This document shows, one piece after another, positions 2,697 through 26,836 of a DNA stretch of 64,000 bases. The notes beneath the pieces were generated by a model. It ran no database searches. It was not told the origin of the DNA and was given only the letters and a program-made list of their open reading frames with translations. This DNA is from Halothiobacillus sp. (lineage in GTDB: Bacteria > Pseudomonadota > Gammaproteobacteria > Halothiobacillales > Halothiobacillaceae). How positions within the stretch are numbered: the first letter of the stretch is position 1; the number at the start of each line of letters is the position of its first letter. A program made the translations under genes and the position numbers. The DNA lies in NCBI GenBank assembly GCA_016278265.1, contig JADQCE010000003.1, positions 186,001-250,000 on the forward strand, read 5' to 3'.

Positions 2697-3554
2697 ATGA
2701 CGTTATTCAAACAGCTTTTGAAGAACCCGCGGGGTCGGGATTTCATCGTCGGCGATCTGCATGGCAGTCGGCCGCTGCTGGAAAAGATTCTCGACAAGCA
2801 CGACTTTTCCCCCGAGCGGGATCGTGTCATTGCCGTGGGGGATCTGATCGATTTCGGCGAGGATTCGCTGGGCACGCTGCGCCTTCTGGGCGAGCCCTGG
2901 TTTTTCTCGGTGGCCGGCAACCACGAGCGGGTGGTCGCCAATCATCGCGACGCGCTCGCCGAACGATGCCTGACCAAGAGCCAGCGCGCCGATCTCGAGG
3001 CGATGGGCTCGGCCTGGTTGCTGGAGCCCTACGACAAGCTCAACGACGACAAGTGGGACGACCTGATCACCGAGGTGATGAACCTGATCAGCCAGATGCC
3101 GTTGATGATCCAGGTCGGCAATGGACCGGCGGCCGTCGGGGTGGTGCACGCCGAGTTGCCGCTATGGGACTGGGACCAGAACATCGCCCGGCTCGAGCGG
3201 GTCAAGAAGTTGAGCTACTGGGCCTCGACAAAGGCCGATCCGCAGCTCGACACCATGCTCTGGGGTCGTTCACAGATCCACGAGGTGCTCGATGGTCGTC
3301 GACCGGAACGCAGCGTGCGCGGCATCGACTGGGTAATTGCCGGGCATACGATTACCGGGCAGCCCGTGCGTGACGGCAACCGGCTCTGGATCGACTGCGG
3401 TGCCTGGGATGAGCGACCCGGCCGTGGACTGGTGCTGGTCGAGGTAGGTGACACCCTCGCCGTGAGTGCGCACTACCACGATCCTAGTGTGCGAACCCAC
3501 CGGTTCGTGCGCCGTGGGCACCATTTCCATTCCGTGATCGACGCGACCGGTTAA
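2697..3554 (+). CDS. PP1/lambda-type serine/threonine metallophosphatase
   Basis: A 286-residue two-metal phosphoesterase like the bacterial PrpA/PrpB and phage lambda phosphatases. All family motifs are present in order: GDLHG (19-23), GDLIDFG (48-54, where the family usually has GDxxDRG), GNHE (74-77), a metal-ligand His in VVHAELP (151) and GHT (216-218). Likely substrates are phosphoproteins or small phosphoesters; the sequence does not decide which. Length is somewhat above the roughly 220 residues of PrpA/PrpB, mainly from an insert at 85-130. ATG 2697 is chosen because the homology starts there; the frame is open to 2337 and the ribosome-binding site is poor. A 60-codon gene follows after 3 bases. 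Confidence 0.8.
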   Translation: MTLFKQLLKNPRGRDFIVGDLHGSRPLLEKILDKHDFSPERDRVIAVGDLIDFGEDSLGTLRLLGEPWFFSVAGNHERVVANHRDALAERCLTKSQRADLEAMGSAWLLEPYDKLNDDKWDDLITEVMNLISQMPLMIQVGNGPAAVGVVHAELPLWDWDQNIARLERVKKLSYWASTKADPQLDTMLWGRSQIHEVLDGRRPERSVRGIDWVIAGHTITGQPVRDGNRLWIDCGAWDERPGRGLVLVEVGDTLAVSAHYHDPSVRTHRFVRRGHHFHSVIDATG

Positions 3555-3557
3555 CCC

Positions 3558-3740
3558 ATGTCTGATCTGAATCGTCTCTCCCTGACGGAACTGCGGCGTT
3601 TGATCGACATGGCGCGTGCCGAGCTGGAGCGTCGCGACCGCGAGCCGGTCGACGAACAGACAGTGCTCAAATCCCTGGAGCTCGACCTCAAGCGCCACCA
3701 CCGGCGCAAGGACGAGGATCGCTTCAATCCCTTTGCCTAG
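3558..3740 (+). CDS. Small charged helical protein of unknown function
   Basis: A 60-residue protein, largely predicted helix, with leucine-rich first half (RLSLTELRRLIDMARAEL) and a basic HHRRK stretch before the end. It begins 3 bases after the phosphatase stop codon, so it is almost certainly translated from the same message. No family was recognised. The tight coupling suggests a partner, regulator or substrate of the phosphatase, which is inference. It could also be a non-functional short frame, but codon use matches the neighbours and no other gene fills the gap before the terminator. Confidence 0.55.
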   Translation: MSDLNRLSLTELRRLIDMARAELERRDREPVDEQTVLKSLELDLKRHHRRKDEDRFNPFA

Positions 3741-3759
3741 GGAAACACCCGCGCCCATG

Positions 3760-3787
3760 AAAAAGGCCCCTCGAGAGGAGGGGCCTT
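3760..3787 (-). terminator. Terminator after purH
   Basis: The hairpin AAGGCCCCTC/GAGGGGCCTT is preceded on the + strand by A residues, giving a U-run on the minus strand where purH ends 34 bases away. It may also stop transcripts of the 60-codon gene arriving on the + strand. Confidence 0.8.
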
Positions 3788-3820
3788 GTCGTGTCCGAGC
3801 CGGCAGATCCACCAGTCGCC

Positions 3821-5383
3821 TCAGTGACGGAAGTGGCGCATCCCGGTGAACACCATGGCAATGCCGTGCTCGTCGGCCGCGTCGATGACCTCCTGATCAC
3901 GCATCGAGCCGCCCGGCTGAATCACCGCCTTGATGCCGGCCGTGGCCGCGGCATCGATGCCGTCGCGGAACGGGAAGAAGGCATCGGATGCCATCACCGA
4001 ACCCTCCACCGGCAGGCCGGCGTCGGCCGCCTTGATGCCGGCGATGCGCGCGGAATATACCCGGCTCATCTGGCCGGCGCCCACGCCGATGGTCTGCTGG
4101 CCGCTGGCGTAGACGATGGCGTTGGACTTGACGAACTTGGCAACCTGCCAAGCGAACAGCAGGTCGCGAATCTCCGCCTCGTCCGGGGCGCGCTGGGTGA
4201 CGATCTTGAGGTCATCCGCGCCGACCACGCCGTGGTCGAAGTCTTGGACCAGCAGCCCGCCGCCGATGCGCTTGAAGTCCATGCCCGGGGCCGGCTTGAC
4301 CGACCAGTCGTCGATCGCCAGCGCGCGCACGTTGGGCTTGGCGGCCAGCTCGGCGGCGGCATCGCTGCCGATCTCGGGGGAGATGATCACCTCGACGAAC
4401 TGGCGCTCGACGATGCTGCGCGCGGTGTGGGCGTCCAGCGGCCGGTTGAAGGCGATGATGCCGCCGAAGGCCGAGGTCGGGTCGGTGGCGAAGGCGCGGT
4501 CGTAGGCGGTGGTGATGTCGTCACCGGTGGCCACGCCGCAGGGGTTGGCGTGCTTGACGATCACGCAGGCCGGGCGGTCGAACTGCTTGACGCACTCGAG
4601 CGCGGCATCCGCATCGGCGAGGTTGTTGAAGGACAGCGGCTTGCCTTGGACGATCCGGGCGCGGGCCAGCGTGCCCGGCGCGGCGTCCGGCTCGACGTAG
4701 AAGGCCGCGTTCTGATGCGGATTCTCGCCGTAGCGCAGGTCCATCGACTTGTTCAGCGGCAGGTGCCAGGTGGGTGCGAACGCGCTCTGGTCGAACTGGC
4801 GGCCCAGGTAGTCGGCGATCATGCCGTCGTACTGGGCGGTGTGGCTGAACGCCGCCCCGGCCAGCCGCTGACGGGTGGCCATCGAGATCCCGTCCCCGTT
4901 GATCTCCTCGAGGACGACCTCGTAGTCGGCCGGGTTGACCACGATGGCGACGTCGTTGTGGTTCTTGGCCGCCGCGCGGACCATTGCCGGCCCACCGATG
5001 TCGATGTTCTCGATCGCCGTAGGCAGGTCGCAGTCCGGGTCGGCCACGGTGCGGGCGAACGGGTAGAGATTGACCACCACCAGGTCGATCGGGGTGATGC
5101 CGTGGGTGGCCATCACCTCGTCGTCGGTGCCGCGACGGCCGAGGATGCCGCCGTGGATCAGCGGATTGAGCGTCTTGACCCGCCCGGCCATGATTTCCGG
5201 GAAGCCGGTGACGTCGCTGACCTCGCGCACCGGCACGTCGTTTTCGCGCAGCAGACGGGCCGTCCCGCCGGTGGACAGCAGTTCCACGCCGGCGGCGTGA
5301 AGACCCTGGGCCAGGCCCAGGATTCCGGTCTTGTCGGAAACGCTCAGCAGGGCGCGGCGCGGCTTGACGGCATGATGGCTCAT
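3821..5383 (-). CDS. purH: Bifunctional AICAR formyltransferase/IMP cyclohydrolase
   Basis: PurH carries out the last two steps of purine synthesis: formylation of AICAR with 10-formyl-tetrahydrofolate, then ring closure to IMP. The 520-residue length is typical. The N-terminal cyclohydrolase domain starts with [10 protein letters not shown] and contains STGGTARLL and [13 protein letters not shown]. The transformylase domain shows RYGENPHQ, the VKHANPCG loop and the closing [13 protein letters not shown] motif. ATG 5381-5383 is chosen because homology starts within ten residues; the frame is open further upstream into the palindromic element, which has no conserved sequence. It is a single-gene unit with its own terminator. 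Confidence 0.97.
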
Positions 5384-5671: not shown

Positions 5672-6532
5672 TCAGTGTGTGGTCGCCTGCTCGCGGACGA
5701 TGCTTTCGAACAGCGAGGAATAGTCGTGGTTGCCGTGCCCGGCGTAGATTCCGTCCTCCAGCACGTGCTGCAGCCCGATCAGCAGGTGGGTGTCGATGCC
5801 CTGACTGCAGGCGCTCTGGGTGAAGAGGCGAATGTCCTTGAGCAGGTGCTTGAGCGGGAAATTGGCCTTGTCGAACGAGTGGGCAAGCATGTTGCCGAGC
5901 TTCTTGTCGAAGGTCGGCGCGTACAGGGCCGATTCGCGCAGGGTGGCCATGAATTTGTCGACGTCGACGCCCTCGCGCTGCACCAACCCCAGGCTCATGG
6001 CGAAGGCGGCGGTCAGCGAGCCGATCAACTGGTTGAAGGCCAGCTTGGCCGCGGCCCCACTGCGCACCGCCCCGAAGTGAGTCGGCGTGCCCAGGGAGCG
6101 CAGTAGCGGGTCGAGGCGCTCGATCAGCGCTTCGGGACCACCGAGAAGCAACTGCAACGTGCCGCTTTGCGCCTGCGGGATGGAGCCCAGCACGGGCGCC
6201 TCGAGATAGTCGCCGCCGAGCGTCTCGATTCGTTGCGCGATCTCTGCGGATTCCGACGGGGCGATGGTCGAGCTGTTGATCACGACGTGATCTCGGATAC
6301 CGGCTTCGCCCAGTTGGTCGATTACCTCGCGGCAGGCGGTGTAGTCGCTAACCATCAGCCAGAGGGTCTCGTTATGTTCGGCGAGATCGGCGAGGTTCGC
6401 GGCGGTGGGGATGTCTTCGATCTCGCGTGGATGGCGGTTGTAGCCGGTCACCGCCCAGCCGGACTGTGTGAGGTGGCGGGCCATGGCGGTTCCCATCAGC
6501 CCCAGGCCGATCACTCCGATCGTGGTGTTCAT
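5672..6532 (-). CDS. NAD(P)-dependent beta-hydroxyacid dehydrogenase (3-hydroxyisobutyrate dehydrogenase family)
   Basis: A 286-residue member of the family that includes 3-hydroxyisobutyrate, tartronate semialdehyde and succinic semialdehyde (GLYR1-type) reductases. The Rossmann motif GLGLMG is at 9-14, the family's substrate loop appears as EAPVLGS (111-117; often DAPVSGG), and the catalytic lysine is K163 in GAAAKLAFNQ. The altered substrate loop, with Leu-Ser for Ser-Gly, makes a standard hydroxyisobutyrate substrate uncertain. The gene stands alone between the palindromic element and dgt. A GGAG lies upstream of the ATG. Confidence 0.8.
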   Translation of the reverse strand: MNTTIGVIGLGLMGTAMARHLTQSGWAVTGYNRHPREIEDIPTAANLADLAEHNETLWLMVSDYTACREVIDQLGEAGIRDHVVINSSTIAPSESAEIAQRIETLGGDYLEAPVLGSIPQAQSGTLQLLLGGPEALIERLDPLLRSLGTPTHFGAVRSGAAAKLAFNQLIGSLTAAFAMSLGLVQREGVDVDKFMATLRESALYAPTFDKKLGNMLAHSFDKANFPLKHLLKDIRLFTQSACSQGIDTHLLIGLQHVLEDGIYAGHGNHDYSSLFESIVREQATTH

Positions 6533-6809
6533 GAAGGTGCCCTCTCCGATGTTCTGTCCTGCGGACGTTCTATCGCCACAATCGCGCGGGGCACGTTCCG
6601 TCGTCTGGTGGATTGCGGCGGGTATAGGGTTATGCTTGCGCCAGCGGTCGTTCGTTTCCCTGTTACCACTGGTGAAATAGCGAGACCTCGGGCCTCTTGG
6701 CGGTGTCGTTACCGGCCCGTTTCGGCCTAAGGAGGCTAGCAGAAGCCGGTGATGATTGCCCGGACCGACGACCCTGCGTTTCGCTCAAGTTACCCCTCAA
6801 GGAATCGTG

Positions 6810-8252
6810 ATGAGACAGGATCTCGACAGCCACTGGCGCCGCTGGCTCAATCCCGATCGCCGCCGTCCCCGCAGCGGGCAGGGCAATCTTCTGGCGACCG
6901 TGCCGGCGCAAACGCGCACGGCCATCGAACGCGACTACGACCGGGTGCTGTTTTCCACCCCGGTACGGCGGATGGCCGACAAGACGCAGGTCTTTCCGCT
7001 GGATCGATCCGACAGCGTGCGCACCCGGTTGACCCATTCGCACGAGGTGGCGAATCTGGCGCGCTCGGTGGGCATCGACCTGGTGTTCCATCACGGCGTA
7101 GCCGCGGGCTTGCCCGAGGCGTTGCGCGACGTCCCCGCCCTGCTCGCTACGATCGGCCTGGCCCACGATCTGGGCAACCCGCCGTTCGGCCACCAGGGCG
7201 AGGATGCGATCGCGCGTTGGTTCGAGATCAATCGCGGCGAGGTGCTGGATGCCGAACCGGCCCTGAGCCCCGCGATGAAGCAGGACTTCCTGCGTTTCGA
7301 GGGCAACGCCCAGACGCTGCGCCTGCTGACCAAGCTGCAACTGATCAACGACGACTACGGGTTGAACCTGACATTGGCGAGCCTGGCCGCGCTGGTGAAA
7401 TACCCGACGGCCAGTGACCAGATCGACCGCACACGCGTCACGCACAAGAAGCATGGCTACTTCCAGTCCGAGCGGGCATTGATGGAGGAGGTCTGGGCCG
7501 GCACGGGCCTGTCATCCGGCCAAAGGCACCCGCTGACCTGGATCATGGAGGCCTGTGACGATATCGCCTACTCGGTGCTGGATGCCGAGGACGCGGTCAA
7601 GAAGGGGCTGCTCTCGTTTTCCGATACCATCGCGTTCCTGCGCCACGAGGCGCCGGACGACCCGGTGGTCACGGCCGTTTGCAACGCGGCTGCCGCCGAG
7701 CACAAGGCCTATCGTCAGGAGCGCCTCTCGCCGGATGAACTCAACGACATCTCCATGCAGACCTTCCGCATTCGTGCGATCGGCGCGTTGATGGAGGCGA
7801 TCGGTGAGGTGTTCATCGACTCCCTGCCGGCCATGGCCGATGGGCATTTCGAACGAGAATTGGTGGATGCCTCGCGCGGGGGGCGCCTGCTGGGGGCCTT
7901 GAAGGCCTGCAACTGGCAACATGCCTATCGGCACAAGTCGGTGTTGCGCGTCGAGCTGACCGGCCTGAGGGTGATCCACGGCCTGATGGATGCCTTCTGG
8001 TACGCCATCACCCGGCGCGAGGATCGTGACGATCCGGCCAGTCCACGGGCCACGCCGCTGGCCGGCTACATCTACCAGCGCATCTCGGAAAACTACCGAC
8101 GCGTATTCGAGTCAACCGATAATCCGATGCCGATCCGCTACCGCGAGGCGCAGTTGCTGACCGACATGATCTCGGGGATGACCGACAGCTTCGCTGTCAG
8201 CCTGTTCGAGGAAATTCGGGAGGTCGGTTTTTGCCCGACGACGCAGGCCTGA
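6810..8252 (+). CDS. dgt: Deoxyguanosinetriphosphate triphosphohydrolase
   Basis: Dgt splits dGTP, and often other dNTPs, into the deoxynucleoside and tripolyphosphate, controlling nucleotide pools. The 480-residue protein has the HD-domain pattern: RTRLTHSHEVANLAR (first His at 76 or 78), the HD doublet at 119-120 in GLAHDLGNPPFGHQGE, and EACDDIAYSVLDAEDAVKKG near 250. The start at ATG 6810 has AAGGA six bases upstream; an in-frame TTG at 6756 would add 18 residues without homology. The deoxynucleotidase gene yfbR follows, so two enzymes of deoxynucleotide turnover sit together. Confidence 0.92.
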   Translation: MRQDLDSHWRRWLNPDRRRPRSGQGNLLATVPAQTRTAIERDYDRVLFSTPVRRMADKTQVFPLDRSDSVRTRLTHSHEVANLARSVGIDLVFHHGVAAGLPEALRDVPALLATIGLAHDLGNPPFGHQGEDAIARWFEINRGEVLDAEPALSPAMKQDFLRFEGNAQTLRLLTKLQLINDDYGLNLTLASLAALVKYPTASDQIDRTRVTHKKHGYFQSERALMEEVWAGTGLSSGQRHPLTWIMEACDDIAYSVLDAEDAVKKGLLSFSDTIAFLRHEAPDDPVVTAVCNAAAAEHKAYRQERLSPDELNDISMQTFRIRAIGALMEAIGEVFIDSLPAMADGHFERELVDASRGGRLLGALKACNWQHAYRHKSVLRVELTGLRVIHGLMDAFWYAITRREDRDDPASPRATPLAGYIYQRISENYRRVFESTDNPMPIRYREAQLLTDMISGMTDSFAVSLFEEIREVGFCPTTQA

Positions 8253-8326
8253 GAGCACTGTCTGCCCCATTTAGACGACCCACTGCCAAGACCGATTGAT
8301 TGTCCACGCCGATTCCAGGGAGCCCG

Positions 8327-8941
8327 ATGAGCGAGTCCAAGCAAAGCCCCGAGAAAAGCCACTTCTTCGCCTACGTCTCGCGGATGAAGTACATCTACCG
8401 CTGGGGGCTGATGCGCAACACGCGCAGTGAGAATGTCCAGGAACATAGCCTTCAGGTCGCCATGATCGCCCACGCACTGGCGGTGATCGGCAACCAGGAA
8501 TTCGGCGAGAACAACGACGTCGGCCGGGTGGTCAGCGTGGCGCTCTACCACGACGCCTCGGAGATCATCACCGGCGATTTGCCCACGCCCGTGAAGTACT
8601 TCCGTGAGGACATCCGCGATTCCTACAAGGCGCTCGAGGCGCACGCCGAGCGAAAGATTATCGGCCTGCTACCCGAGTCGTTGCAGGCATCGTTTGCCGA
8701 AGTGATCGAGAGCGCACGTATCGAGCCCGAGGTGCTGCGGCTGGTCAAGGCCGCCGACTCACTATCGGCCTACCTCAAGTGCATCGAAGAACGGGCCGCC
8801 GGCAACCAGGAATTCCGCCGTGCCGAGGAGTTCCTGTACGGCAAGCTCGAGGAGATGACCGACCTGCCGGCGGTGGCCTTCTTCCGGCAGCAGTTCGTCG
8901 ATGCCTTCGAACTGACCCTCGACGACTTGAGTCACGACTGA
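8327..8941 (+). CDS. yfbR: 5'-deoxynucleotidase, YfbR family
   Basis: YfbR is an HD-domain phosphohydrolase that dephosphorylates 5'-deoxyribonucleoside monophosphates. This 204-residue protein matches the family length (199 in E. coli). It contains the conserved start region SHFFAYVSRMKYIYRWGLM, the first His in VQEHSLQVA (40), the HD doublet at 75-76 (LYHDASEI), the TGDLPTPVKY loop and the distal Asp in VKAADSLSAYLKC. ATG 8327 has a GGGAG site 5 bases upstream; an upstream in-frame TTG at 8300 is less likely. It lies 74 bases after dgt on the same strand and ends close to a convergent gene. Confidence 0.92.
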   Translation: MSESKQSPEKSHFFAYVSRMKYIYRWGLMRNTRSENVQEHSLQVAMIAHALAVIGNQEFGENNDVGRVVSVALYHDASEIITGDLPTPVKYFREDIRDSYKALEAHAERKIIGLLPESLQASFAEVIESARIEPEVLRLVKAADSLSAYLKCIEERAAGNQEFRRAEEFLYGKLEEMTDLPAVAFFRQQFVDAFELTLDDLSHD

Positions 8942-21746: not shown

Positions 21747-23765
21747 CTACAGTAGCCGCACGCCCAGCAATGGGCGGATGGCATCGGCTGGTGTCGGGCG
21801 ACCGATCAGGTAGCCCTGGAAGGAGTGGCAACCAAGCGCGTCCAGCAGATCGCGCTGCTCGGTGGTCTCCACCCCTTCGGCGATGATCTCGAGCGACAGG
21901 GCGTTGCCCATGGCGATGATCGCCCGGACGATCTCCAGATCGTTGCGGTCGCCGAGGATGTCGCGCACGAAACCCTGGTCGATCTTCAGGCGGTCGAACG
22001 AGAATCGCTTGAGGTAGCTCAGCGACGAATAGCCGGTGCCAAAGTCGTCCAGCGCGAGCTTCACGCCCAGTTCGCGCACGGCATCCAGCATCGTCGCCGC
22101 CTGTTCAGGGTCATGGACCAGCGCGGTCTCGGTGAGTTCCAGTTCGAGTCGCTCCGGGGGCAGGCCGGATATCTCCAGGGCGCGGGCGACGCGGTCGGCA
22201 AAGCAGCGGGCGTGCAGCTGAACGCTGGAGACATTCACCGAGACGGTGATCGCCTCGCCGGTCTCGCGGCCCCACTCGGCCGCCTGGCAGGCCGCTTCTG
22301 TCATGACCCAGCCACCGACCTCGACGATCAGTCCCGATTGCTCCAGGAAGGGGATGAAGTCCTGCGGGCCACACTGCAATTGCGGATCGGGGGCGTCCCA
22401 GCGCAGCAGGGCCTCCACGCCGGTCACGGCCAGGCCGAGGGCATCCTGCTGGATCTGGTAGACGAGGTGGAAGCGGTCGTTCTCCAGGCTGTCGCGCAGG
22501 GCCCCCAGCATCTCGGAACGCCAGATCTGCCGCTCCGAGAGCTGCGGGCTGAATACCGCCACGGGCTCGCGTTCGTTCTTCTTCGCCTCGAACATGGCCG
22601 CATCCGCCTGGGTAAGCAGCTGGGCGATGTGGCGGCTGTGGGACGGCCAGTAGGCAATGCCGGTACTGGCGGTCAGGATGAGGTTGGTGGTCTCGAGTTC
22701 GAAGGAGTGACGCACCAGTTCGCGCAGCGCCGCGCCCAGCACCTCGGGGCCATCGCTGGGTTCGACGTCGCCGGCGAGGATGGCGAACTCGTCGCCGGCG
22801 AGCCGTGCGACCAGCCAGTCCTGCTGGGCACCCAGGTCGCGCAGCCGGTCGGCCATCTGGCGAATCACCCGGTCGCCCTCTTCGTGCCCGTGGCAGTCGT
22901 TGATGCTGCGGAAACGGTCGAGGTCCAGCACGGCGACTGCCGCGTGTCGGTTCTCGCGGCCCAGTTCGTCGAGACGGCGCTGGGCTTCGATCTGGAAGAA
23001 GCGACGGTTGTAGAGGTGGGTCAGCTCGTCGTGTATGGCCAGGTCTTCGTATTCGGCCTGGGCGCGCAGCTGGGCGGTGATGTTGCGCGCGATCACGATC
23101 ATGGCATGCCGCTGGCCGTTGGCGTCGAATACCGGCTGCTTGATCGTGTCGAAGACCTGTTCCTCGCCTTCCGGCGATTTGATCACTTCGCTCTCGCGAT
23201 GGAGTTCATGGGCCTTCCAGGCGCGCTCGTCGGATTGTCGGCAGAAGTAGAAGGCATCCCGGAAGGTCGGTTCGGTCAGATCGGCCAGCGAGTCGTCGCT
23301 CTGCCCCCACCAGGGCAGGCCCTCGAGGCGGAACAGGTCGAGCGCCGCCTGGTTGGCCAGCAGCCAGCGCCCTTGGCCGTCCTTGATCTGGATCACGTCT
23401 GGACTGGCGTCGATCAGCAGGCGGACCAGGCGCTCGGTCTCGGCCAGTGCCGATTCGGCGCGCTTCTCGCCGGTGACGTCCTGCAGCAGGTGCAGTTCAC
23501 GTGGGGTGGCGGCCGGATCGGGGTGCGAGCCGAGGTGAAGGTGGCGATAGACGCGGCACTCGGCGTCCTCGCCGGTCGGATGGCCGACCAGTCGCGGCGA
23601 GGTGTCACCCTCGCGGTCGTCGAACATGCTCTCGAGCTTGCTGCTCGCCGGCATCGCGCGCGCTGCCCGGTTGATCAGATGCAGTCGGCCGTCGGCATCA
23701 CGCCCGACCAGCGGGTCCGGCAATGCTTCGAGCCAATGCGAGATATCGTGTTGGCGATCCATCAT
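21747..23765 (-). CDS. PAS-GGDEF-EAL cyclic-di-GMP signalling protein
   Basis: A 672-residue cytoplasmic protein: two PAS-like regions (about 1-90 and 100-225), a GGDEF domain (about 240-405) and a C-terminal EAL domain (about 420-665). The cyclase signature reads AGDEF and lacks an RxxD I-site five residues upstream, so cyclase activity is uncertain. The EAL domain keeps the key motifs: EALLRW, NVSSVQL, ELTETAL, DDFGTGYSSLSYL and the K of LKIDQGFV, so c-di-GMP phosphodiesterase activity is likely. ATG 23763-23765 has AAGGA 6 bases upstream and starts 10 bases after the kinase-Rieske gene. Confidence 0.88.
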   Translation of the reverse strand: MMDRQHDISHWLEALPDPLVGRDADGRLHLINRAARAMPASSKLESMFDDREGDTSPRLVGHPTGEDAECRVYRHLHLGSHPDPAATPRELHLLQDVTGEKRAESALAETERLVRLLIDASPDVIQIKDGQGRWLLANQAALDLFRLEGLPWWGQSDDSLADLTEPTFRDAFYFCRQSDERAWKAHELHRESEVIKSPEGEEQVFDTIKQPVFDANGQRHAMIVIARNITAQLRAQAEYEDLAIHDELTHLYNRRFFQIEAQRRLDELGRENRHAAVAVLDLDRFRSINDCHGHEEGDRVIRQMADRLRDLGAQQDWLVARLAGDEFAILAGDVEPSDGPEVLGAALRELVRHSFELETTNLILTASTGIAYWPSHSRHIAQLLTQADAAMFEAKKNEREPVAVFSPQLSERQIWRSEMLGALRDSLENDRFHLVYQIQQDALGLAVTGVEALLRWDAPDPQLQCGPQDFIPFLEQSGLIVEVGGWVMTEAACQAAEWGRETGEAITVSVNVSSVQLHARCFADRVARALEISGLPPERLELELTETALVHDPEQAATMLDAVRELGVKLALDDFGTGYSSLSYLKRFSFDRLKIDQGFVRDILGDRNDLEIVRAIIAMGNALSLEIIAEGVETTEQRDLLDALGCHSFQGYLIGRPTPADAIRPLLGVRLL

Positions 23766-23775
23766 CCCCGATCCT

Positions 23776-25068
23776 TCATCCCCTTGGGCGTTCCGGCGCG
23801 TGTTCCTGAGGGCGTTCTTGTCCATCTCGCCGGTTTGCGCGATCGGCCAGGTAGATCCGGTTGCCGGTCCGCTCCAGATCGACGGGTTCGAGCCGTTGCC
23901 CCTCGCAGGGGCCGGCGATGCACAGGCCATCGTCGAGACGGAAATAGGCCTGGTGCACGTTGCATCGCAGCTGGCGCTCCCCCTCGCGGGTCTCGAGGAA
24001 ATCGTGCCGTTCCCGCGACAGCGGCGAGCCGTTGTGCGGACAGACATTGCGCCAGGCACAGACCCGGTCACCCTCGCGGACCACGATCAATGGCGCCGGT
24101 CCGCCGGACGACTCGCGCCCCTGCGGCCAGATGCCCAGGGCATCGACCGGCTCGAGGTCATCAAGCCGGCAGAGCAGGTCCGGATCGGCAGCCGGGTCGT
24201 CCGGTCCCAGCCCGGCCAGCCCGGCCTGGGCCAACTTGCGTTCGGCGAGTCGCACGGCAAATTCCAGTGACTCCAACGACCCCATCCCGCGCACGCGGGC
24301 GTGGATGAATCCGGCGATCAGTGTGTCGCCGGCGGCGATGCTGTCAATGATCGTATCGACCGGTTGGGCCGGAACATGAGCGGGCTCGGCCTCATCTGGG
24401 CGTGACAGCCAGGCCCCGCCGCTGCCCCAGCCGAGTACCAGGATCGCCTGCGGCGCCCAGCCACGGGCCTCGCACAGGAAGGTTGCCGGCTGATCGAAGC
24501 CGCGGCCCCGGGCGAAGGCGGCGGAGAAAAAGATGATGTCCGGGAACGACCAGAGCTGGTCGAGTGCCGGGCGATCCTTCTCCACTTCCAGCGAGATGGG
24601 TTGGTCGGTGACCCGCGAGCGGCACAGGGCCAGCATGGCGGCGGTCTCGTCGCAGGCGCGCGCCTCGAAATGCAGCCAGTCGTATTGGCTTGGGTCGAGG
24701 GCCATGAACGCGCCCAGGTCGAATTCCGGCAGGTCGCGGTAGTGGACGATCGTGCGGCTGCCGGTGGCGCGGTTGACGGTGATGTAGGACGTCGGCGCGT
24801 GGCCATCCACGCGACGCGCGTGGCGGGTATCCACACCGTAGCGATCCATCAGATCACTAATGCGCCGCCCGTCGGCGTCCTCGGCCAGCACGCCGGCAAA
24901 CTCGACCGGGTGGCCGAACTGACGCAGCACCCGCAGGCTGTTGGCGACATTGCCGCCCAGCTCCACCCGTTGGGATAGCGCGCGCTGCTCGCTGTCCTCC
25001 GCCGGGTAGTGGTCGAGCTCGTTGATGATGTCCAGCGTGGCAATCCCCACGCCCAGCACGTTCGCCAT
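23776..25068 (-). CDS. Ketohexokinase-like PfkB sugar kinase fused to a Rieske [2Fe-2S] domain
   Basis: A 430-residue two-domain protein. Residues 1-285 are a PfkB-family kinase closest in pattern to ketohexokinase: GGNVANSLRVLRQFG (38-52), SYITVNRATGSRTIVHYRDLP (94-114, shown in part), SLEVEKDR and the anion-hole motif AAGD (245-248, catalytic Asp248; usually GAGD). Residues about 325-408 form a Rieske domain with Cys343-Pro-His345 and Cys369-Asn-Val-His372, the CxH...CxxH ligand set of a [2Fe-2S] cluster, followed by a charged tail. No frameshift or internal start separates the halves. The kinase probably phosphorylates a sugar or nucleoside; how a Rieske centre would couple to it is unknown. 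It precedes the c-di-GMP gene by 10 bases. Confidence 0.85.
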   Translation of the reverse strand: MANVLGVGIATLDIINELDHYPAEDSEQRALSQRVELGGNVANSLRVLRQFGHPVEFAGVLAEDADGRRISDLMDRYGVDTRHARRVDGHAPTSYITVNRATGSRTIVHYRDLPEFDLGAFMALDPSQYDWLHFEARACDETAAMLALCRSRVTDQPISLEVEKDRPALDQLWSFPDIIFFSAAFARGRGFDQPATFLCEARGWAPQAILVLGWGSGGAWLSRPDEAEPAHVPAQPVDTIIDSIAAGDTLIAGFIHARVRGMGSLESLEFAVRLAERKLAQAGLAGLGPDDPAADPDLLCRLDDLEPVDALGIWPQGRESSGGPAPLIVVREGDRVCAWRNVCPHNGSPLSRERHDFLETREGERQLRCNVHQAYFRLDDGLCIAGPCEGQRLEPVDLERTGNRIYLADRANRRDGQERPQEHAPERPRG

Positions 25069-25107: not shown

Positions 25108-25674
25108 CTACGTGTCCCGGCCGCGCTTGGGGAGGGTTACGACCTCGACCCACCACTCGTCCGCGGTGGCGGTCAGGCGCAGAAAGCCGATGCCGCCGAA
25201 GGCCCGCTGGCGTCCGGCGGCGCCCGGGTTGAGGACCCAGGGGGTGTCGTCGGTGTCGATCACCCGGTGATGGGTGTGGCCGTACACGATCGCGCGCGCC
25301 TCGGGATGGCGGCGCCGCAGTCGCTCGTGACGGCTGCGGGCGGGGTTGACTTGATGCCCGTGCTCGATGACCAGCAGCCCGCCCGGCAGGGTCAGGTACG
25401 CCTGTTCGGGCAGGGTCTCGAGCAGCGCCTCGGTTCCCTCCGGCCACTGGTCGGGGGTGTCGTTGTTGCCGCGCACGACCACCACGTGGCCGGTGGTCGG
25501 CGTGAGGTGGCGCAGTTCGTCGGGATCAAGCAGGTCGCCGGCATGGACGATCACGTCCACCTCGGCCAGCCGCGGCAACAAGGCACGCTCGAGCGTGCCG
25601 TGCGTGTCGCTGATCAGGCCGACTGTGACCCGGTCGTGGTCACCGAGATCCATCTCGGTCTTGTGAACAGCCAC
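25108..25674 (-). CDS. YfcE/MJ0936-type metallophosphoesterase
   Basis: A 188-residue calcineurin-like phosphodiesterase. Motifs in order are GLISDTHG, IVHAGDLLD, VRGNND, VIEHGHQV and YGHTHH, the standard YfcE set. E. coli YfcE acts on phosphodiester model substrates; the natural substrate is not known. The start GTG 25672-25674 has GGGGAG seven bases upstream and lies 4 bases after the exporter stop codon; an ATG at 25651-25653 is an alternative seven codons later. The kinase-Rieske gene follows 39 bases downstream, so a four-gene run on this strand is likely. Confidence 0.85.
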   Translation of the reverse strand: MAVHKTEMDLGDHDRVTVGLISDTHGTLERALLPRLAEVDVIVHAGDLLDPDELRHLTPTTGHVVVVRGNNDTPDQWPEGTEALLETLPEQAYLTLPGGLLVIEHGHQVNPARSRHERLRRRHPEARAIVYGHTHHRVIDTDDTPWVLNPGAAGRQRAFGGIGFLRLTATADEWWVEVVTLPKRGRDT

Positions 25675-25678
25675 AGGC

Positions 25679-26836
25679 TCACTCCCCAGATCCTTGGCCT
25701 GGCACCTTGCGGGCCTGCCGGCGCCGCCAGTAGGCGTGAATGGTGACGGCGGCGAGCACCGCGAGCGAGGCGATGCCCAGCCAGTTCGCTTCCATTGCAT
25801 GGCCGCCGGCCGCCCCGCTCGGCAGGCTCCAGTCGAACGCGCGCCACAGCAGGTCGAGGCCGATCCCGGCGACCAGCGCGCAGGCGATCACGGTCACGAG
25901 GTACACCCCGATCAGGCGGCTGCCGAAATGCTTCCTCAAAATGCCGAGCGTGCCGATGTTGGTCGCCGGGCCGGCGAGCAGGAACACCAGCGCCGCACCC
26001 GGCGACATGCCTGCCACCAGCAATCCGGCGGCGATCGGCGTGGAGGCGGTTGCGCAGACGTACATCGGGATGCCGATCACCGCCATCAGCAGGTAGCTGC
26101 CCACCAGCCCCCAGGCGTTGTCGAAAAAGCCGTCCGGGATCAGCACCACCGCGGTGGCCGCGATGGCCAGGCCCAGGAGCATCCACGGCACGATGTCGAT
26201 CAGCACCTGGCCGAAGGCATAGGCAAAACCGCCGGAGAGGCGCTCGCGGGCACCGGGACCCGCGGGTGCCTCGTCCCCGCAACAGGAGGCAGCGGTGTCG
26301 TTTTCCGGGCCGCAGCAGCTTGCCGTCGAGGTGTTCGCCGGCGTGCTGTCACAGCAGCCGCTGTCCTTCTCCTCGCCACAGCAAGCGTCGGCGGCGGACG
26401 ATGCGCCTGCCGTGGCCGGGGCGGCCGGCATTGGCCCGGCCAGTCGTCCGCTGATGACGCCGGTGACGATCGCGCCGATGATCGCCGCGATCGGGCGGGC
26501 AATGGCATAGACCGGGCCCAGCAGGCCGTAGCTGACGCTGATCGAGTCCGGCCCGGTCTCCGGCGTGGCGACGAGGAAGGCCATCGATGGCCCGCGCCCG
26601 GCGCCGGCGTCCTTGAGGCCCAGCACCGCCGGCACCACCCCGCAGGAACACAGCGGCAGCGGCGCGCCGATGAACGCGGCGCGCACGATCGCGCCGGTCG
26701 ATTCACCCGAGAGGTACTTCGCGATCGCCAATTGGTCGGAGAACGCCTTGATCAGCGCGGCGATCACCAACCCCAGCAGCAGCCAGGGGGCGGCCTCTAG
26801 CGTCAGGAACCACAGCTCGTTGAACCATTGCGTCAT
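25679..26836 (-). CDS. SO_0444-type Cu/Zn efflux permease
   Basis: A 385-residue inner-membrane protein of the permease family once called DUF318, with about eight to ten transmembrane segments. The metal motif PLCSCG is at 61-66, and each half repeats an IGxPLxxC-like segment (IGIPMYVCATASTPIAAG in the second half). The cytoplasmic loop between halves (148-190) has four Cys-Cys pairs at 152-153, 161-162, 174-175 and 185-186, typical of SO_0444-family Cu/Zn exporters and likely a metal-sensing or delivery loop. GAGGAG is 8 bases before the ATG. A palindrome at 26896-26913 lies just upstream and may be its operator. Confidence 0.85.
   Translation of the reverse strand: MTQWFNELWFLTLEAAPWLLLGLVIAALIKAFSDQLAIAKYLSGESTGAIVRAAFIGAPLPLCSCGVVPAVLGLKDAGAGRGPSMAFLVATPETGPDSISVSYGLLGPVYAIARPIAAIIGAIVTGVISGRLAGPMPAAPATAGASSAADACCGEEKDSGCCDSTPANTSTASCCGPENDTAASCCGDEAPAGPGARERLSGGFAYAFGQVLIDIVPWMLLGLAIAATAVVLIPDGFFDNAWGLVGSYLLMAVIGIPMYVCATASTPIAAGLLVAGMSPGAALVFLLAGPATNIGTLGILRKHFGSRLIGVYLVTVIACALVAGIGLDLLWRAFDWSLPSGAAGGHAMEANWLGIASLAVLAAVTIHAYWRRRQARKVPGQGSGE

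Follow-up and report, generated by a model that had tools for sequence, protein, structure and literature searches.

A single gene in the 64,000-nucleotide stretch of Halothiobacillus sp. DNA that was analysed (GenBank assembly GCA_016278265.1, contig JADQCE010000003.1, positions 186,001 to 250,000; hereafter the window) encodes a PfkB kinase of the ketohexokinase (KHK) type fused to a Rieske domain. We read its product as a kinase that would phosphorylate a ketose, probably fructose, at C1, and whose activity or partner would be set by a [2Fe-2S] redox module; a probability of about 0.4 is given to this reading. The observations behind it are the fusion itself, the recurrence of the two genes as neighbours, a KHK-type active site, the cluster ligands, an additional cysteine pair, purifying selection and the association with RuBisCO and with GH100 invertases.

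A single frame encodes the kinase and the Rieske domain

The fusion gene is located on the minus strand, at positions 23776..25068. Its frame runs without interruption for 430 amino acids, from an ATG start to a TGA stop, and homologues of it are found in other genomes. Pfam places a PfkB domain at residues 4-283 (E 5e-25; 88.8 bits, above the curated cut-off of 25.8) and a Rieske domain at residues 325-391 (E 2e-8; 34.2 bits, above the curated cut-off of 20.3); the uninterrupted two-domain frame described in the first-pass annotation is hence real. The kinase domain, as delimited by Pfam, phmmer and structural alignment with VIA-align, covers residues 1-287 (24208..25068, minus strand, as are all features of the gene). 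It is followed by a linker of residues 288-322 (24103..24207), the length of which varies across the aligned fusions, by the Rieske-type [2Fe-2S] domain at residues ~323-408 (23845..24102; Pfam, and Foldseek with the domain model) and by a C-terminal tail of residues 409-430 (23779..23844), which is unconserved in the alignment and modelled with lower confidence. The structure model of the whole fusion reached a mean pLDDT of 93.6 and a pTM of 0.85, the latter value suggesting that the kinase and the Rieske domain are packed against each other in a defined, fixed manner.

The fusion is maintained in independent genomes

The fusion was found in 25 of the 27 genomes of the window's own family, the window's included, and matches were obtained in 40 of 57 genomes searched. 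In that family, one genome (G008, 85% complete) gave no match, and another (G003, 64% complete) encodes a kinase of 303 amino acids with no Rieske domain found. The nearest named records belong to Guyparkeria, such as Guyparkeria sp. SCN-R1 and G. hydrothermalis R3, halophilic autotrophs that oxidise sulfur according to the excerpted text of PMC6504805. Full-length matches in records that are not labelled as metagenome assemblies come from these two and from Hydrogenovibrio sp. SC-1. Across the 127 kinase loci examined, 32 have the fused arrangement, so the same two-domain architecture does exist elsewhere. In a plasmid collection, 32 records showed a match, none of which covers 80% of the query.

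When the window was compared with eight near relatives, dN/dS was 0.08-0.28 in the kinase and 0.07-0.23 in the Rieske domain. In the C-terminal tail, three of the comparisons gave 0.36-0.63 and the other five no defined value. Purifying selection acts on the kinase and on the Rieske part alike. Because the fusion recurs in independent genomes, three of them named records not labelled as metagenome assemblies, and because selection on each of its parts is purifying, a frameshift or an artefact of assembly is rejected as its origin. The chance that a frameshift, a misassembly or an accidental read-through of two genes has produced it is negligible, and this reading was dropped.

The kinase domain is of the ketohexokinase type

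When the kinase sequence was searched with phmmer, the closest solved sequences were ketohexokinases (human KHK, E 4e-44). The match to animal ketohexokinase scored 154.6 bits, versus 45.4 bits for the best NCBIfam kinase model, the cut-off of which is 330. Twenty-one NCBIfam sugar kinase equivalogs (ribokinase, 1-phosphofructokinase, fructokinase and others) matched at E <= 1, none of them above its cut-off. Structural comparison points in the same direction. With VIA-align, the rows of which span residues 1-291 only, the best superposition was on KHK-C (Z 41.4; 1.3 Å; 287 residues), followed by the sulfofructose kinase YihV (Z 34.8) and ribokinase (Z 34.1), while the first two matches of Foldseek were mouse and human ketohexokinase (TM 0.92-0.93 by target length). 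Human and mouse KHK-A/C hence share the fold of the window's kinase (Z 41, 1.3 Å over 287 residues) at 33-36% identity. Unlike the fusion, they were matched as full-length chains of ~298 residues that include no iron-sulfur domain. YihV, the next closest solved relative, is 25% identical, and its solved chain likewise comes without a Rieske domain.

The excerpted text of a mutational study of KHK (PMC11332825) reports that KHK-A is inactive with alanine at D15, N42 or N45, that D258 is catalytic, that changes at R141 and K174 reduce activity or fructose affinity, and that in the human enzyme K174 faces the free C6 hydroxyl of fructose. The human residues D15, N42, N45, R141, K174 and D258 align to D13, N40, N43, R137, K164 and D248 of the fusion, and these are present, respectively, in 79, 79, 78, 79, 79 and 79 of the 79 kinases of alignment A3 (the window plus, from the sequences remaining after thinning, 28 of 29 fusions, 50 of 87 kinases and 41 of 47 Rieske proteins). 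The window's kinase thereby retains those substrate and catalytic residues of KHK that were tested. The AAGD motif at residues 245-248 (24325..24336), in which Asp248 corresponds to the catalytic D258 of human KHK, had been singled out beforehand as a departure from GAGD. Of the 79 aligned kinases, 62 begin the motif with Gly and the other 17 with Ala, and its Asp is present in all 79; AAGD is an ordinary variant and was no longer considered a special feature. Judged by sequence, predicted fold and residues, the kinase family is near the eukaryotic KHK type, and the ketohexokinase-like character first ascribed to the protein is upheld.

Prokaryotic KHKs have been described in Haloarcula hispanica and H. 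marismortui, where, in the excerpted text of that work (PMC11519228), the enzyme uses fructose made in the cell; the likeness to the window's kinase is one of description only. The same excerpts regard the relationship of haloarchaeal KHKs to eukaryal ones as only distant and describe a separate fruK (PMC11519228), whereas the window's genome yielded no PfkB protein besides the fusion.

The Rieske domain carries intact ligands and an additional cysteine pair

The two ligand pairs expected of a Rieske centre (CxH...CxxH) are C343-P-H345 (24034..24042) and C369-x-x-H372 (23953..23964). All four ligands occur in each of the 70 Rieske-bearing rows of the alignment, in agreement with the intact ligands noted originally. 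So do the two cysteines of a further pair, C383-x4-C388 (CxxGPC; 23905..23922), which is shared by split and standalone relatives and is invariant in the 46 rows of alignment A4 (the window's domain and 45 of the 47 Rieske proteins left after thinning). The GP of CxxGPC belongs to what we take to be the usual third loop of Rieske proteins.

The Rieske part was also folded (pLDDT 85.9) and searched with Foldseek on its own. The model retrieved NirD and Rieske-type ferredoxins of dioxygenases, and a profile comparison agrees with this result. The domain scores far under the NCBIfam cut-offs; for TIGR02378 (NirD, nitrite reductase small subunit) it reaches 22.2 bits, below the cut-off of 74.65. 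It has the same small Rieske fold as NirD and as CarAc, T4MOC and HcaC, the ferredoxins of aromatic oxygenases. Unlike these, it is fused to a kinase or encoded beside one, and unlike 3gce, the one solved relative aligned over this stretch, which has the second cysteine only, its subfamily carries both C383 and C388 (70/70). On the strength of its ligands the domain is predicted to hold a [2Fe-2S] cluster.

Each of the two domains is of a known kind. In the literature searched on Rieske proteins with sugar kinases, at the level of titles and beginnings of abstracts, neither the fusion protein nor the combination of kinase and Rieske domain is described.

Kinase and Rieske genes recur as neighbours

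The class was screened, in 369 genomes, with two profiles, one of the kinase (A1) and the other of linker plus Rieske domain (A2), at thresholds of E <= 1e-40 and E <= 1e-12, respectively; the 369 genomes were taken as a single set across the profile searches, these having the same scope and the same number. The kinase was detected in 102 genomes, the Rieske protein in 140 and both in 59, so that 43 of the 102 kinase genomes lack a Rieske match and 81 of the 140 Rieske genomes lack a kinase match. Considering as linked those matches lying on the same contig and < 5 kb apart, 38 of the 59 genomes that encode both kinase and Rieske have them linked, with the two on the same strand. The fused form accounts for nine of the 38 and a split form, in which the kinase comes first and < 100 bp separate the matches, for 28, while G270 alone has the reverse order; the kinase precedes the Rieske part in 37 of the 38 cases. 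In genome G028, the ATG of the Rieske gene directly follows the stop codon of the kinase gene. The unlinked cases (21/59) comprise 18 in which the matches are on different contigs and three in which they are > 1 megabase apart. Two further pairs (G184 and G294) appear adjacent, with Rieske pieces scoring 43-46 bits, and are counted outside the 38. Within genomes encoding RuBisCO, the co-occurrence of kinase and Rieske is marginal (odds ratio 1.84, p 0.051, kinship between genomes being ignored).

The suspicion that homologues of the kinase never carry a Rieske part is true of some loci only. For 64 of the 127 loci, the stretch examined, which in some cases stops at a contig end, revealed no Rieske next to the kinase; elsewhere, a Rieske gene adjoins the kinase gene or is fused to it. 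A kinase tree built by a quick method with 124 of the 127 loci (L203, L204 and L039 were left out) places fusions in the window's family together with G172, in a Hydrogenovibrio-type group and in G081. On this tree the fused label needs four changes, gains or losses, at least two of which are forced by well-supported branches. More than one independent fusion event is the natural, if unproven, reading of the tree. The fusion thus represents two genes that recur as neighbours and have here become one, and is not a chance join.

Neighbouring genes

Upstream of the fusion, on the same strand and after a gap of 39 bp, lies a gene for a calcineurin-like phosphoesterase (25108..25800, minus strand); in the relative G005, the phosphoesterase gene overlaps by 4 bp instead. 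Downstream, a PAS-GGDEF-EAL gene (21747..23765, minus strand) is probably co-transcribed with the fusion, as its likely ATG is situated 10 nt past the stop codon of the latter; this start is our choice, the mechanical frame opening at 24071.

Neighbourhoods were compared in 40 hand-picked genomes and the window. No oxygenase or reductase was present among the nine recurring neighbour proteins of relatives and the six window neighbour proteins that were scanned. Three roles had been proposed for the Rieske centre, namely redox sensing, docking to an oxidase and a hidden oxidation step on a phosphorylated sugar. Docking finds no backing in the neighbour proteins scanned, no support was obtained for the oxidation step, and redox sensing is the putative role that fits best of the three.

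In 18 of the 127 kinase loci, an FGE/PvdO-like C-terminus is encoded upstream of the kinase, on the same strand and at most about 420 bp away. The seven longest copies of this protein have 1610-1857 amino acids; in two of these, the start coincides with the edge of the stretch. One long copy was scanned (1756 amino acids; L110:6799-12069, minus strand, upstream of the kinase) and contains two cyclic-nucleotide-binding domains, a rhodanese domain and coiled-coil-like matches, followed by the FGE/PvdO-like domain. Genome G041, which gave no kinase match, encodes a 725-amino-acid relative of the long protein (L139, ~5891-8445, minus strand), the gene for which has a 4-bp overlap with a standalone Rieske gene. 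A SnoaL-like/DUF4440 gene, seen at L115:5312-5776 (minus strand) and beside kinase or Rieske genes elsewhere, is divergent from the pair or from a standalone Rieske gene; several loci have this arrangement, and in some a transporter gene (SBF or ABC) follows. At L209 (genome G040, 2952-4964), a standalone gene of the Rieske subfamily is divergent beside the gene for the RuBisCO large subunit.

The kinase is associated with RuBisCO and with GH100 invertase

In the genomes of the class, and with kinship between them ignored, RuBisCO is encoded in 94 of 102 genomes with the kinase versus 82 of 267 without it; conversely, the kinase is present in 94 of 176 RuBisCO genomes versus 8 of 193 others. 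Also without regard to kinship, GH100 neutral invertase was found in 40 of the 369 genomes, 32 of which encode the kinase, and within RuBisCO genomes the kinase occurs in 30 of 37 with GH100 versus 64 of 139 without it (odds ratio 5.0, p 1.6e-4). Sucrose synthase was detected in 56 genomes (37 with the kinase), and its link to the kinase within RuBisCO genomes is weaker (odds ratio 2.1, p 0.03), kinship being again ignored. Neither sucrose synthase nor GH100 is present in 49 of the 102 kinase genomes. The window's genome encodes both synthesis and cleavage of sucrose, by means of a gene cluster (L219:5585-10165, plus strand) for a GH100 neutral invertase, a sucrose-phosphate synthase and an S6PP-family phosphatase. 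For Guyparkeria sp. SCN-R1, the excerpted genome description predicts sucrose as a secondary osmolyte (PMC6504805).

No second PfkB kinase was detected in the window's genome; the fusion is its sole PfkB match, and therefore no PfkB-type 1-phosphofructokinase was found there. Phosphofructokinase of family PF00365 was found neither in the window's genome nor in G005. An aldolase of family PF00274, which we take to be the class I enzyme, is present in the window's genome. In G000 and G005 alike, the PF00274 aldolase is present and PF00365 was not found. Among 12 fusion genomes tested, PF00274 occurs only in the four of the window's genus and in none of the eight outside it; this aldolase may simply serve CO2 fixation. 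With a single PfkB match, no PF00365 phosphofructokinase found and a PF00274 aldolase, Guyparkeria could have a liver-like route through KHK and aldolase. The window's genome also encodes a ROK kinase whose nearest model is a fructokinase (370 bits, below the cut-off of 443), and to regard the fusion as the sole fructokinase of this genome would be unsafe.

Phosphofructokinase was sought as well in 40 of the 102 kinase genomes, hand-picked and not all with RuBisCO, and in the first 40, by handle, of the 82 RuBisCO genomes without a kinase match. It was not found in 11 and 8 of them, respectively, and therefore a general role of the kinase as substitute for phosphofructokinase is not supported.

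Alternative explanations

Two alternatives compete most with our reading, a role as simple ferredoxin and a substrate that is a phosphorylated ketose. In the first, the Rieske part might be an ordinary electron-transfer ferredoxin serving another enzyme, the kinase being merely co-expressed or tethered and under no control by it. The domain resembles NirD and dioxygenase ferredoxins by fold and profile, it is encoded without a kinase match in 81 of the 369 genomes, and its standalone copies adjoin other genes (for the SnoaL-like protein, the SBF transporter and the ABC transporter). A general carrier, however, would hardly explain the recurrent pairing with one kinase family and the nearly constant gene order, and the neighbour proteins scanned include no oxygenase or reductase; we consider this explanation doubtful. 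That the Rieske part is instead a structural or docking module devoid of a redox role, its cluster absent or only stabilising, is very unlikely: a cluster is missing from certain Rieske-like proteins, E. coli NirD being one, but in the present subfamily the four ligands are retained in all 70 rows and selection on the domain is purifying.

A further alternative concerns the substrate, which might be a phosphorylated or other ketose related to CO2 fixation. This ketose might be fructose 6-phosphate, the kinase then standing in for phosphofructokinase, or might arise as a by-product in the Calvin cycle, and the Rieske domain would guard against futile cycling while CO2 is fixed. The frequency of RuBisCO in kinase genomes is in line with it, as are the failure to find PF00365 in the window's genome and in G005 and the status of the fusion as sole PfkB match of the former. 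Possibly relevant as well, a PfkB protein was proposed as the phosphofructokinase of Acidithiobacillus ferrooxidans in the excerpted text of PMC2621215. Against it, phosphofructokinase was not found at similar counts with and without the kinase (11/40 versus 8/40), and the tested residues of KHK that contact fructose are kept, including the lysine that faces the free C6 hydroxyl. This substrate assignment appears unlikely.

Proposed role of the fusion

Our preferred reading, a redox-set KHK-type kinase, would operate as follows. The kinase would phosphorylate a ketose at C1, most likely fructose freed in the cell from sucrose that is stored or serves as osmoprotectant. The small Rieske [2Fe-2S] protein joined to it, of NirD or Rieske-ferredoxin type, would be the partner that it usually has. 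Through its cluster and the additional cysteine pair, this module would most likely make the activity of the kinase, or its choice of partner, depend on the redox state of the electron-transfer chain, and a CO2-fixing cell would then spend sugar only when its electron supply calls for it. That fructose is the substrate, that the cluster is occupied and that redox state controls the kinase, as well as the direction of such a control, we infer from the observations listed at the outset. Several facts weigh on the other side: kinase and Rieske each occur alone (43/102 and 81/140), so neither needs the other; their co-occurrence within RuBisCO genomes is weak, and 21 of the 59 genomes with both have them unlinked; the ROK kinase of the window's genome could take fructose; sucrose synthase and GH100 are both lacking in 49 of the 102 kinase genomes; and, among the fusion genomes tested, the PF00274 aldolase is confined to the window's genus.

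A more specific version is put forward tentatively, as a possibility. The fusion may be a [2Fe-2S]-gated ketohexokinase of CO2-fixing gammaproteobacteria, in which the Rieske centre and the cysteine pair would read the redox state of the electron-transfer chain and switch the kinase that opens the sugar store; in Guyparkeria, where no phosphofructokinase was found, it would feed a liver-like route from sucrose through fructose and fructose 1-phosphate to trioses. Chloroplasts subject sugar enzymes to light/dark redox control, and the gated kinase would be a counterpart of it in logic.

We know of no precedent for a sugar kinase directly controlled by an iron-sulfur centre. If the proposed role is true, the fusion would be such a kinase, and cells living on inorganic electron donors would tie the use of stored sugar to their supply of electrons. 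The results also draw attention to bacterial kinases that, as a family, match animal ketohexokinase with a far higher score than they do the NCBIfam kinase models, and to a Rieske subfamily with a conserved additional cysteine pair.
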